A DNA stretch of 48,323 nt, from NCBI GenBank assembly GCA_017629175.1, contig JAGBXS010000049.1, positions 1 to 48,323 of the forward strand, read 5' to 3'. Within the stretch, counting starts at the first letter, position 1, and each line of letters opens with the position of its first letter. The notes under the pieces were generated by a model. The model saw nothing but the letters and a program-made list of their open reading frames with translations. It was not told where the DNA came from and did not search any database. This document shows, one piece after another, positions 4,197-44,876 of the stretch. The DNA comes from Clostridia bacterium (GTDB taxonomy: Bacteria > Bacillota > Clostridia > Oscillospirales > CAG-382). Both the position numbers and the translations under genes were made by a program.

Positions 4197-5003
4197 CTAT
4201 GTAACCGATTTTTTTGCTTTTTTCCAGTAGCTTAACAGCTCATCTCGAGAATTTTCGTTGATCTTACGCCCTAAATCAAGGCTTTGCTTCTCCACAGAGG
4301 CAAATCTGCGGAGGTATTTCTCACAAGCCTTGATCAAAGCAAGCTCGGGATCGACGCCGGAAAGCCTTGCGGCATTGACAACAGACAGAAGCAGGTCGCC
4401 AAATTCCTCCTCAATATGCTCAAAAGATCCCTCCGCGATGGCACTCTTGACCTCAAGAACCTCCTCGTCAACCTTCAGCAGAGATTCCTCCGGCTCCCAA
4501 TCGAAACCGAACTTACGGGATTTCTTTCCTAACTTATCGGCGCGCATCAACGCGGGCAAAGTGCGAGGAATAGCCTCCAGAGTTTGCGTGGCGGTGGTAA
4601 AGCTATGGGAGTTGGCTTTGATAGCCTCCCAATCCTTCAAGGGCTTTCCTTCCCCGTCGAAAACACGGTCTCCGAAAACGTGAGGATGGCGGATGATCAT
4701 CTTGCGGCAGATCTCGTCGCAGACCTCCTCCAAATCAAACCAGCCGTCTTCTTCTGCAATGCGGGAATGGAAGGCAACCTGAAACAGCACATCTCCAAGC
4801 TCCTCGCGCATACCCACAATGTCCTTGTTGTCAATGGTCTCGACAGCCTCATAGACCTCTTCCAAAAAGTTCATACGGATGCTGTCGTGGGTCTGCTCCT
4901 TATCCCAGGGGCAACCCTCCGGAGAGCGAAGAATTTCCACCACAGTGCGCAGATCCTCAAAGGTGTAGCGAGTTTTATTGCATAGCGTTTCAATTCGATT
5001 CAT
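4197..5003 (-). CDS. mazG: Nucleoside triphosphate pyrophosphohydrolase MazG
   Basis: Hydrolyses NTPs and dNTPs to the monophosphate and PPi, a house-cleaning role. The 268 residues contain two MazG modules. The first has SPEGCPWDKEQTH (about 28-39), the Mg-binding EE..E set (about 48-52) and EELGD (67-71); the second has EEEFGDLLLSVVNAARL. Bacillus YabN, found at the same locus, also carries an N-terminal tetrapyrrole-methylase-like domain; that domain is missing here, so this is the E. coli-length form. The start overlaps the flippase stop by 14 nt. Last gene of the cdaA-mazG unit. Confidence 0.95.
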   Translation of the reverse strand: MNRIETLCNKTRYTFEDLRTVVEILRSPEGCPWDKEQTHDSIRMNFLEEVYEAVETIDNKDIVGMREELGDVLFQVAFHSRIAEEDGWFDLEEVCDEICRKMIIRHPHVFGDRVFDGEGKPLKDWEAIKANSHSFTTATQTLEAIPRTLPALMRADKLGKKSRKFGFDWEPEESLLKVDEEVLEVKSAIAEGSFEHIEEEFGDLLLSVVNAARLSGVDPELALIKACEKYLRRFASVEKQSLDLGRKINENSRDELLSYWKKAKKSVT

Positions 5004-6660
5004 GGAGCAAACCTCTCTTCACCAGGAAGGATGCAAGTCTCCCACCCATGGGAAGCAATCGCACCTCGTCTGCAGTGATGCCTTTGAACAAAAGCATAGT
5101 AAGAACGTAAATTGCCACGGCGAAGATGCCTGTGATCATCAGCAGGATCAAGGCGTTCAATCTGCCTCCACCGGAGAACACGAGAGAAGACAGATTGTAT
5201 ACCAAAACAGACCCACCGCAGGTCAAAAGCGCACAAATTACCGGACGCAAGAACAGCTTAACAGGAGAAAGCTCCGCGGTGGTATATTTCTTCAGGAAGA
5301 ACAGATTCAGCGTCGCAGCGACAAAATAACAGCTGATGGAGCTGATAGGTGCGCCGTAGATGCCCAGCACTCCGGAAACACCGAAATACTCGATCAAGGC
5401 CATGCAAACAACGCCAACGCCCACGGAAAGCATGGGTAACCATATCTTCCCAACGGCCTGTAACAACGCATTGGTGGTAGATACGATGGCCATGAAAATT
5501 ATTCCCAAAGCAAGGATCTGTAAAGTTCCCGAGGAAACGGCAAGGGCGTCAATTCTGCTGTATTGATCCAAGGCCCCCTGATACAAAACAGTCAAGCAAG
5601 AAGGTGCCGTTGCCACAAGAAACGCGGCACTGGGCAGACCGATGATGGCACTGATGCGGATGGACTGGACGATGTTCTTGTTTCCGCTTGCGCTGTCCTT
5701 CACGGAAAATGCGGCAGAAACCAAGGGCAAAATGCTGATGGCAATGGGATAGATCAACGTGGACGGCAGTAGATCGGCAATGGCAGTGGAATAGGAAGTA
5801 TACGCGGTATACAGATCCTCAGCAACCGCCTCCGACGCTCCGCCGAGCATCAGGCATTTTTTGATCAGCACCGTATCGATAAAGGTAGATAAATAGAGCG
5901 CGGAGGAGGTGATCGTCGCAGGTAACGCAATGATCAAGATCTTCTTGGTCAAGGCCGAGGTCTGTTCGCAACCGTCATCCGTGGAAGCTGGTCTCTTCCC
6001 TGCGGTACGGAAACGGTAGCAGAACAGCAGAAGCATCTCCAAGAACATACCGACCGTAATACCGCTGACGGCACAAGCGGCCTGGACGTAAGGCTCGTAG
6101 CCTGCATTGGCCGCCCAAACGGTCGCACCCAAGCCGAGCCCCATCTTCAAGGCCGCCTCGATCAACTGACCGATGGCGGTGGGATACATATTATGTAATC
6201 CCTGATAATATCCTCTGAAGGCAGAGCAAACGCAAACGAACAGCAAAGTGGGCGCAATGAAATACGCCGCCAAAACGCTGTCGGGGTGGCCCGTTGCGCC
6301 AAAGAAGGGCTTGGCCAAAAGGATCATGGCGGCAGTAGCGATCACACCAAGTACCGTAAAGGCTGTAAGGGCAACGCGGAAGGTACGCAGGACCTCTTTT
6401 TCACGCCCACGTTTTGCAGAGGCAGAGATCATACGGCTGATAGCCACCGGTAATCCGCTGGTGGACACCATATACAGCATTGCATACAAAGAATACGCCG
6501 CACTGAAGATGCCCATATGCTCGCCGAGAATGTTGGCAAGGGGGATCTTGAACAGAACGCCGATGATCTTTACAACAAAGCTGGAAACGGAGATGATCCC
6601 CGCTTCCACCAAAAAGCTTTTATTCTTTTTTTGTCCTTGTGCTTTTTCTAATTCTGACAT
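4990..6660 (-). CDS. MOP-superfamily lipid flippase, SpoVB/YabM family
   Basis: A 556-residue polytopic membrane protein with about 14 predicted helices. Members of this family flip lipid-linked saccharides such as lipid II or polymer precursors across the membrane; SpoVB does so for spore cortex synthesis. The N-terminal SVSSFVVKIIGVLFKIPLANILG and SGLPVAISRMIS, and SAFRGYYQGLHNMYPTAIGQ near 150, are typical of the SpoVB branch. It sits next to mazG as yabM does in Bacillus, 6 nt after the uridine kinase gene. Which paralogue it is (SpoVB, YabM or MurJ-like) cannot be settled by eye. Confidence 0.9.
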   Translation of the reverse strand: MSELEKAQGQKKNKSFLVEAGIISVSSFVVKIIGVLFKIPLANILGEHMGIFSAAYSLYAMLYMVSTSGLPVAISRMISASAKRGREKEVLRTFRVALTAFTVLGVIATAAMILLAKPFFGATGHPDSVLAAYFIAPTLLFVCVCSAFRGYYQGLHNMYPTAIGQLIEAALKMGLGLGATVWAANAGYEPYVQAACAVSGITVGMFLEMLLLFCYRFRTAGKRPASTDDGCEQTSALTKKILIIALPATITSSALYLSTFIDTVLIKKCLMLGGASEAVAEDLYTAYTSYSTAIADLLPSTLIYPIAISILPLVSAAFSVKDSASGNKNIVQSIRISAIIGLPSAAFLVATAPSCLTVLYQGALDQYSRIDALAVSSGTLQILALGIIFMAIVSTTNALLQAVGKIWLPMLSVGVGVVCMALIEYFGVSGVLGIYGAPISSISCYFVAATLNLFFLKKYTTAELSPVKLFLRPVICALLTCGGSVLVYNLSSLVFSGGGRLNALILLMITGIFAVAIYVLTMLLFKGITADEVRLLPMGGRLASFLVKRGLLHESN

Positions 6661-43121: not shown

Positions 43122-43583
43122 ATGCTTACGTTGGAGCAAGCAAAAGAAATACAGCGAAAAAGAAGCAAGGCTTGTCTTTTGAAGTTTGGCGGATATGTTT
43201 TACTTGCGGTTGCTCTTTGGGGTGTACTGTTTTTCTTCACCGACTATTTGGCGAAGTACGGGGCGCTTTACGCGGTGTTCCCTCTTCTGCTTCTTGTGGG
43301 GGCAAAAATGTCGAAGCTCTTGGCATTTCTACAAAAGAAGGAGTTTATCGGCAAGATTGTGGATAGCGACATCAAAATGGTGCCTGCAAGACGGTACGGC
43401 GCAACTAACCAGCCCGGGACAACGTATGCTACTTCTGATATGCCGATTTTGGAGATCACCGTGGAAAACGATGTGGGAAAGCGGGTGTGCAAAACGACCC
43501 CCTACCAGTGGGCGTGGGGAGAGTTCAAGCCCGGGATGCAGGTTTGCTTGCTTCGGTTTATCGATCAGCCTGTTAGATTTTAA
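43122..43583 (+). CDS. Small membrane protein of unknown function
   Basis: A 153-residue protein with two adjacent membrane helices (about 23-41 and 47-63) after a basic N-terminus (EIQRKRSKACLLKFGG), then an 85-residue soluble domain. That domain looks beta-rich (KIVDSDIKMVPARR, MPILEITVENDVGKRVCKTTPY, GMQVCLLRFIDQP), perhaps an OB- or SH3-like barrel, as seen in NfeD-like or DUF small proteins. It is a single-gene unit with its own promoter and terminator. No family is assigned. Confidence 0.78.
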   Translation: MLTLEQAKEIQRKRSKACLLKFGGYVLLAVALWGVLFFFTDYLAKYGALYAVFPLLLLVGAKMSKLLAFLQKKEFIGKIVDSDIKMVPARRYGATNQPGTTYATSDMPILEITVENDVGKRVCKTTPYQWAWGEFKPGMQVCLLRFIDQPVRF

Positions 43584-43590
43584 GGAGATG

Positions 43591-43632
43591 AAAATAACTC
43601 CGTGGATGCATTGATTCCACGGAGTTATTTTT
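43591..43632 (+). terminator. Intrinsic terminator
   Basis: AAAATAACTCCGTGGA and TCCACGGAGTTATTTT pair perfectly over 16 bp around 9 nt and end in T residues. It follows the stop codon of the small membrane protein gene by 7 nt. Confidence 0.88.
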
Positions 43633-43675
43633 ATGTTAAAACAACGAGAGCTGACGCCGGTTCTCTCTCCCGCAT

Positions 43676-43741
43676 GCTCCCTCAGTCAGCCGGATGGCTG
43701 ACTGCGCATCCGCTTTAGCGGATATCCTCCCCGGAGGGAGC
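43676..43741. repeat. Multi-hairpin palindromic element
   Basis: An outer stem GCTCCCTC/GAGGGAGC (43676-43683 with 43734-43741) encloses two inner hairpins: AGTCAGCC/GGCTGACT with a GGAT loop (43684-43703) and ATCCGC/GCGGAT with a TTTA loop (43708-43723). CCTCC/GGAGG near the right end is a competing stem. The element ends exactly at the base before the stop codon of the XRE regulator gene, read on the minus strand. The form resembles dispersed CTCCCTCAGTC-type intergenic elements I recall from gut Firmicutes genomes, but only one copy is in this window. Confidence 0.7.
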
Positions 43742-44815
43742 CTAACCCAACAGTGATTTAAAATCCTCGCGGTGGCGGAGGGGATCGTAGGTCTTATCAT
43801 CGCGGAGCTCGTCTTTGAAATAGGTTTCAATACTGCCCAGGGGTCTGCAGTCGGAATAGTCGTAGTAATAGTGATCCAAGATGGGGCAGGTATAGGGGTG
43901 CTTGCCGCCCGTCACGGAACGGTCTCGTTCCTTGGCAAACTGTAAGGCTTTTTTCAGTTCTTCCACGGCAAGGGCGTGGTCACCGTCATAGATTGCGATC
44001 CGGGCAAGCTTTTCATGGATGAACTGCATCCAAAAGCTGAAATACAGATAATTGCCGTCCGGGATGACGGTCTCGATGATGGCCTTGCTTGCTAAGACGG
44101 AGGCACGGGTGCGAGGAAGGGCGGGACTCTCGAACCGCCAATGCTTTTCCAGCTTGTTCAAAAGATTTGCCAAAGCATCGGAGATGTTTTCCTGGCGGAG
44201 GATCAAAAGCTCTTCCCCTTTCAGACACATCTCCAGAGCATCGTTACGGGTAGTGGGGCTTCCCTCTGGGTAGAGCATAGCATATTTCTTTGCCTCATCG
44301 ATCCTGTCGCTGTAACGGTAGGCACAGATCACCGTCCACAGAGAATCGTTGCGAAGATCTTCGTCTGTAGCATTTTCATACACCTGCAGGTTGTGGGCGA
44401 TGGATTTGTCCATAGCGGCAAGGAATTCTTTTTGATCCTTGTGACGGAAGGCGATGTAGTATTCCACGGATCCAAGCCAATGAAGATAGCGGTAGTCACC
44501 GGGGTATTCCGATACGGCTTGTTTTGCGATGAGGTAATCCGCCTCGTGGTCGTCCTTCTTCCAGTATTCGAAGTACTCTGCATCGAAGTATTGCTTGCGG
44601 GGGTCGTTTTCCGGCGGACTCATTCCCAGCAGGGTGTCGGTGCTTACCTGCTGGAGCCTCGCCAGAGGGACAATGAGGGCGAGGTCGGGCATGGTGGCGC
44701 CGCATTCCCATTTGGAGACGGCCTTATCCGTTACGCCCAAAAGGGTGGCAAGCTTTTCCTGGGTGAGGTCGTTTTGCTTCCGCAGGTCTTTGATGCGTTT
44801 GCCGATGTTTTGCAT
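43742..44815 (-). CDS. XRE-family regulator with TPR-like C-terminus
   Basis: A 357-residue regulator. The N-terminal helix-turn-helix (IGKRIKDLRKQNDLTQEKLATLL, KAVSKWECGATMPDL) covers residues 3-60. The rest is alpha-helical with TPR-like pairs (YLIAKQAVSEYPGDYRYLHWLGSVEYYIA, SLWTVICAYRYSDRIDEAKKYAML, ALAVEELKKALQFAKERD). The frame extends to 44857 but the ATG at 44813-44815 has GGAGGA 8 nt upstream and the longer form would contain the -10. TPR tails in such proteins can bind peptides or partners. Targets are unknown; it may regulate itself. Confidence 0.88.
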   Translation of the reverse strand: MQNIGKRIKDLRKQNDLTQEKLATLLGVTDKAVSKWECGATMPDLALIVPLARLQQVSTDTLLGMSPPENDPRKQYFDAEYFEYWKKDDHEADYLIAKQAVSEYPGDYRYLHWLGSVEYYIAFRHKDQKEFLAAMDKSIAHNLQVYENATDEDLRNDSLWTVICAYRYSDRIDEAKKYAMLYPEGSPTTRNDALEMCLKGEELLILRQENISDALANLLNKLEKHWRFESPALPRTRASVLASKAIIETVIPDGNYLYFSFWMQFIHEKLARIAIYDGDHALAVEELKKALQFAKERDRSVTGGKHPYTCPILDHYYYDYSDCRPLGSIETYFKDELRDDKTYDPLRHREDFKSLLG

Positions 44816-44847
44816 AAGAAGTTCCTCCGTAGTGTTCTTTCGAATGC

Positions 44848-44876
44848 AGTATAACACAAAGAAAAACTTCCTGCAA
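44848..44876 (-). promoter_or_regulatory. Promoter of the TPR-type XRE gene
   Basis: Minus strand: TTGCAG, 17 bp, TATACT. The leader is about 25 nt and holds the ribosome site. Confidence 0.72.

Follow-up and report, generated by a model that had tools for sequence, protein, structure and literature searches.

The locus raises the question of what the compact palindromic structure at positions 43676-43741 is, and how it came to lie at the end of a gene. The window, as the term is used here, is the whole stretch of 48,323 nucleotides that was analysed, and all positions are those of the window.

Structure of the element and its neighbourhood

The features of the locus are as follows, with the basis of each assignment in brackets.

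43122-43583, plus strand: membrane-like ORF of 153 amino acids, without a Pfam family
43596-43632, no strand assigned: separate terminator-like stem-loop AACTCCGTGGA/TCCACGGAGTT (43596-43626), followed by a T run that ends at 43632 (direct reading)
43633-43742, no strand assigned: stretch missing in the relative G009, an empty site (alignment of relatives)
43663-43675, plus strand: left extension CTCTCTCCCGCAT, common to the copy L001 and to the CNCGCRG flank of congeners
43676-43742, plus strand: whole repeat unit, a type A variant, GCTCCCTCAGTC...GGAGGGAGCC (match of the structure model R2, E 6e-6)
43676-43683, plus strand: 5' arm GCTCCCTC, paired in the window copy with 43734-43741 (fold computations)
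43683-43704, plus strand: hairpin 1, AGTCAGCC-GGAT-GGCTGACT at 43684-43703, extended to CAGTCAGCC-GGAT-GGCTGACTG (fold and family comparison)
43705-43725, plus strand: stretch with the extra (second) hairpin, ATCCGC-TTTA-GCGGAT at 43708-43723 (copy comparison and fold)
43734-43742, plus strand: 3' arm GAGGGAGCC, of which GAGGGAGC at 43734-43741 is the partner in the outer stem
43742-44857, minus strand: gene of an HTH_3 (XRE-like) regulator, its stop codon abutting the repeat (ORF call and domain search)

Two hairpins enclosed by an 8-bp closing stem were found in the 66 bases of 43676-43741 by sequence reading and RNAfold, as the earlier note had described, and its placing of the element's edge directly before a stop codon was also borne out, the TAG (CTA on the plus strand) of the minus-strand HTH_3 ORF starting at base 43742. 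The structure was rejected as a terminator, in agreement with the same note, since a T tract was absent at both edges and a distinct terminator-like stem lies 43 nt to the left, between the convergent genes. That stem-loop probably serves both genes; it was not picked up by the automatic terminator scan, probably because its loop is of 9 nt.

The minimum free energy of the element as RNA was -36.0 kcal/mol (z -3.8; 2 of 200 shuffles equally good). As single-stranded DNA, z was -4.6 for the plus strand and -4.7 for the minus strand, with none of 200 shuffles equally good, and the two strands folded about equally well. Inverted repeats are common near gene ends, and a chance palindrome with no relation to other sequences would be the simplest account of the structure; it was refuted, to the point of having practically no probability left, by the shuffled DNA and by a 34-base match (94% identity, E 1e-8) to the closest other copy in the genome (L001), together with the many related copies described below.

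Copies and their distribution

Exact GCTCCCTCAGTC sites numbered 6 in the 1.83 Mb draft host genome (1 for the reversed-pattern control), and about 9 units were supported by two models, R1 built on sequence and R2 on structure; the element is not single-copy. The model-based counts, here and in other genomes, rest on models trained on type A. An inverted A/B pair is present in the same genome at C73:29374-29578. Within the taxonomic family, the repeat family was present in 23 of 63 genomes, with a patchy distribution. At least 136 copies were obtained by the GTDB scan, among the first 120 contigs listed, from Clostridia, Bifidobacterium and a few Caulobacterales. Two metagenome-assembled genomes (MAGs), both with sampled copies from Clostridia, contained 106-115 copies; three Bifidobacterium species had 43, 149 and at least 150, and Caulobacter sp. 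BK020 had 68. The genomes and records reached through the loci held from 4 to at least 150 matches each, and one Deinococcus plasmid a single, more divergent match. The Rfam search gave no match above any family's gathering score. The repeat family was not found described in the open-access papers searched; subscription journals could hold a description.

In one MAG (G093), very many contigs begin with a unit (positions ~45-90). Because so many copies lie near contig ends there, the repeats may break short-read assemblies.

Design of the family

The family follows the formula CTCCCTCAGTC-stem-GACAGCTCCCTC-nnn-GAGGGAGCC, and the copies of the window's genome, set side by side, have CNCGCRG-GCTCCCTCAGTC-stem-GACAGCTCCCTCCCGGAGGGAGCC in common. 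A regular type A unit of ~45-50 bp consists of the 5' motif CTCCCTC, hairpin 1 (CAGTC-variable stem-GACAG) and hairpin 2 (GCTCCCTC-nnn-GAGGGAGC), and a sister type B reads CTCCYTCCGTC..CCACCTCCCTC-nnn-GAGGGAGG.

Compensatory changes are abundant in hairpin 1, where pairing is kept and the bases swap freely; the covariation that the earlier note had proposed to look for in the stems is thus present in this hairpin. Among the 136 copies listed in the GTDB scan, the first apex pair was AT in 87, GC in 20, TA in 7 and CG in 3, and the second was GC in 54, CG in 50, AT in 7 and TA in 5. In 22 aligned copies, 98.1% of the cells were paired (90.6% in shuffles) and 22 cells were double-changed (7.2 in shuffles).

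In almost all copies the 3' arm can pair with the 5' arm CTCCCTC as well, so the outer stem and hairpin 2 are mutually exclusive; with two copies of CTCCCTC and one partner GAGGGAG, the arms therefore compete. Hairpin 2 is ahead of the outer stem by ~2-6 kcal/mol in regular copies, and of the nine discriminating copies seven favour hairpin 2 and two the outer stem. A conserved outer stem was rejected, as it nearly always co-occurs with the pairing of hairpin 2. By these computations the closing stem is not the normal fold of the family, and ordinary copies are predicted to prefer two separate hairpins.

The window copy as an altered unit

The window copy follows L001 as far as GGATGGCTGAC, after which TGCGCATCCGCTTTAGCGGATATCC replaces AGCTCCCTC: the inner arm AGCTCCC of the family is displaced by the extra hairpin, and it is only because this arm is gone that the window copy prefers the outer stem. 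The three-way arrangement, which the earlier note had taken for the design of the element, is consequently not that of the family, whose regular copies carry side-by-side hairpins; the inserted hairpin belongs to the window copy only. Since its second half is altered, the window copy scored only 25.9 bits with the model. In hairpin 1 it has an A-T pair where the family usually has an A.A mismatch. As the family ends in GAGGGAGCC, the last C of the window unit is probably base 43742, inside the neighbour's stop codon.

The extra hairpin ATCCGCTNNAGCGGAT had no second occurrence in 24 genomes of the genus, and was rejected as a dispersed repeat, being found within the genus in the window copy only. 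Palindromes are inserted in other copies as well (G010, G025, L005, L114), whether close to GACAGC, within the apex or within the loop of hairpin 2, and such nesting therefore recurs.

Presence and absence in relatives

The empty-site comparison suggested by the earlier note gave a positive result: the relative G009 lacks the window insertion, and the T run of its terminator continues directly into the stop codon of the gene (TAA in G009, TAG in the window's genome). Between G010 and G009, with flanks 95-98% identical, exactly 214 extra bp lie in G010 between two adjacent bases of G009, at the same point as the G009 empty site, and carry a CCCCTCAGTC-type unit. The junction is clean, with no obvious target duplication, at the one precise site available.

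When L005 (1389-1610) and L006 (~150-230) were compared with G009:C16, a different palindromic subfamily, CCTCATCC..CCTTCCCC, was seen to fill the same intergenic slot in the other genome. Our reading is that these permissive 3' slots received insertions repeatedly; local replacement, or loss in G009 rather than gain elsewhere, could be the alternative.

No transposition event, mobilising enzyme or target duplication was seen in this material; the family behaves like non-autonomous mobile DNA, and we infer its mobility from its distribution and the empty sites.

Genomic placement and arrangement

The units are mostly intergenic and lie in either orientation; 40 of 136 overlapped predicted ORFs, many of which are probably spurious. 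Among the clearly intergenic units no preferred orientation to genes was found, the rates being about background, and no protein family recurred beside the units in ~170 loci. On a phage contig (L370, IMGVR_UViG_3300029705_000238), five A units lie on one strand at 2205, 3285, 5136, 7471 and 11425; in each, a left part of ~60 nt is conserved and includes a GCGTTGC..GGCAACGC hairpin.

These data bear on the alternative that the element is a structured RNA (a 3' UTR stabiliser, an attenuator or a small RNA) with a cellular function, which the earlier note had left beside the mobile repeat. The strong stems and the compensatory changes would suit an RNA model, the window copy between stop codon and terminator is probably transcribed, and the five same-strand phage units are each just upstream of a gene. 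The units nevertheless take every orientation to the adjoining genes, at rates close to background, no gene family recurred beside them in the ~170 loci, Rfam holds no match, one genome may have no copy and another at least 150, and both strands fold about equally well, all of which makes an RNA function quite improbable.

A and B are often paired in inverted orientation with short spacing; spacer and geometry differ widely from pair to pair. Tandem units and single ones are common too, and the window copy is a solo unit. An array in G009 (L283 305-1452, G009:C22) holds 4.1 copies of 279 bp, each with an inverted pair. In G025 (L225-L231), units are found within inverted composites of ~300-400 bp whose ends have a AAATTTGGGTTTRTCGGG-like sequence in common.

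The inverted A/B pairs with their short spacers, and the composites of G025, would also be expected if a classical MITE or insertion sequence, mobilised by an ordinary transposase, had A and B as its left and right ends and left solo copies behind as remnants. Among ~170 loci, however, the inverted pairs yielded no autonomous partner with a transposase enclosed by A and B, and the frequent tandem and single units, the varying spacers and geometry and the lack of an identified target duplication likewise speak against such ends, so that this account appears unlikely, if still worth keeping in view.

A full A unit and an inverted B-like unit lie on Klebsiella/Enterobacter plasmids (L405/L406 ~5001-5160; e.g. 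NZ_CP004000.1:194066-194114), just upstream of rsmH-tgt-rmtG. This suggests that the resistance segment rsmH-tgt-rmtG was derived from a repeat-carrying bacterium outside the Enterobacterales, and units on phages and resistance plasmids may mark the donor.

Interpretation

The window element is very probably one modified member of a dispersed, non-autonomous family of palindromic DNA repeats (REP/MITE-like) that occurs in many gut bacteria, because the family is multicopy, carries compensatory changes, is mostly intergenic and in both orientations, is present or absent in close relatives and has no linked gene family; the modest copy number in the window's genome and the low score of the window copy count against this reading. 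The earlier note's idea of a dispersed CTCCCTCAGTC-type non-autonomous repeat is upheld by the copies, the compensatory changes and the empty site, and the case by which it would have been refuted, a lone copy with no compensatory changes in relatives, did not arise.

A trans-acting enzyme would recognise the hairpins, probably as folded single strands, and units would thereby be copied and spread; this putative mobilising enzyme would be one other than a Y1/RAYT transposase. In the window copy, an extra hairpin would have been inserted after GACTGC with loss of the inner arm, upon which the 5' arm would have come to close a three-way junction. The solo altered unit would have inserted where the HTH gene ends, its terminal C probably supplying the final base of the stop codon, and transcription of the minus strand would place a strong 3' UTR hairpin ahead of the shared terminator. 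The window copy is thus pictured as probably a passenger that is transcribed within the 3' UTR of the HTH gene and folds there into a hairpin; this predicted hairpin may influence mRNA decay.

In some gut Clostridia and Bifidobacterium the family ranks with the more abundant intergenic repeats, and it is not in Rfam.

Comparison with known systems

Y1 (RAYT) enzymes mobilise GTAG REPs (PMC8266576, PMC3116915), in which the palindrome is preceded on its 5' side by a conserved GTAG tetranucleotide (PMC8266576). GTAG was absent at the unit edge of the present family, the 5' motif of which is CTCCCTCAGTC. PF01797 was absent from the window's genome (G000) and from 11 others of the 16 genomes, including the copy-bearing G080 and G026, and no Y1 transposase was found in the Bifidobacterium genomes G086, G087 and G088 (43 to at least 149 copies). 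In other genomes the Y1 loci were not flanked by units, save for a single locus ~300 bp away from units, in a genome carrying 106 copies. A GTAG REP mobilised by RAYT was accordingly rejected, there being no tag, no repeat-flanked Y1 and high-copy genomes that lack Y1; in the Bifidobacterium genomes without Y1, REP-like spread without RAYT becomes directly testable.

CGTC REPs have a CGTC head, a single stem of 8-9 bp, a loop of 4-5 nt and a CCA tail (Di Nocera 2013, PMC3733652); they occur in several phyla without a dedicated transposase, and no Bacillota or Actinomycetota are listed for either superfamily (PMC3733652). Like them, the present units are tagged palindromes in pairs, are spread over several phyla and were found with no dedicated transposase, and type B has CCGTC before and CCA after hairpin 1, a fit of head and tail that is only loose, whereas type A, to which the window copy belongs, differs in its CAGTC..GACAG and its second hairpin. 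With MITEs the family shares small size, lack of autonomy and composites of inverted pairs; a parent insertion sequence, a common terminal repeat and a target duplication were not found.

In the manner of REP, REPIN and BIME elements, the units are short, multicopy, mostly intergenic palindromes, reaching 150 copies or more in a genome and patchily spread, with head-to-head pairs, tandem inverted arrays and a fixed mismatch at the foot of the stem; unlike GTAG REPs, with one hairpin per unit, they have two. We tentatively propose, while thinking it somewhat short of probable, that they form a further REP-like superfamily in Bacillota, Bifidobacterium and Caulobacterales, made up of two-hairpin A/B units with competing arms and served by a putative hairpin-recognising mobiliser that is not of the Y1/RAYT kind.
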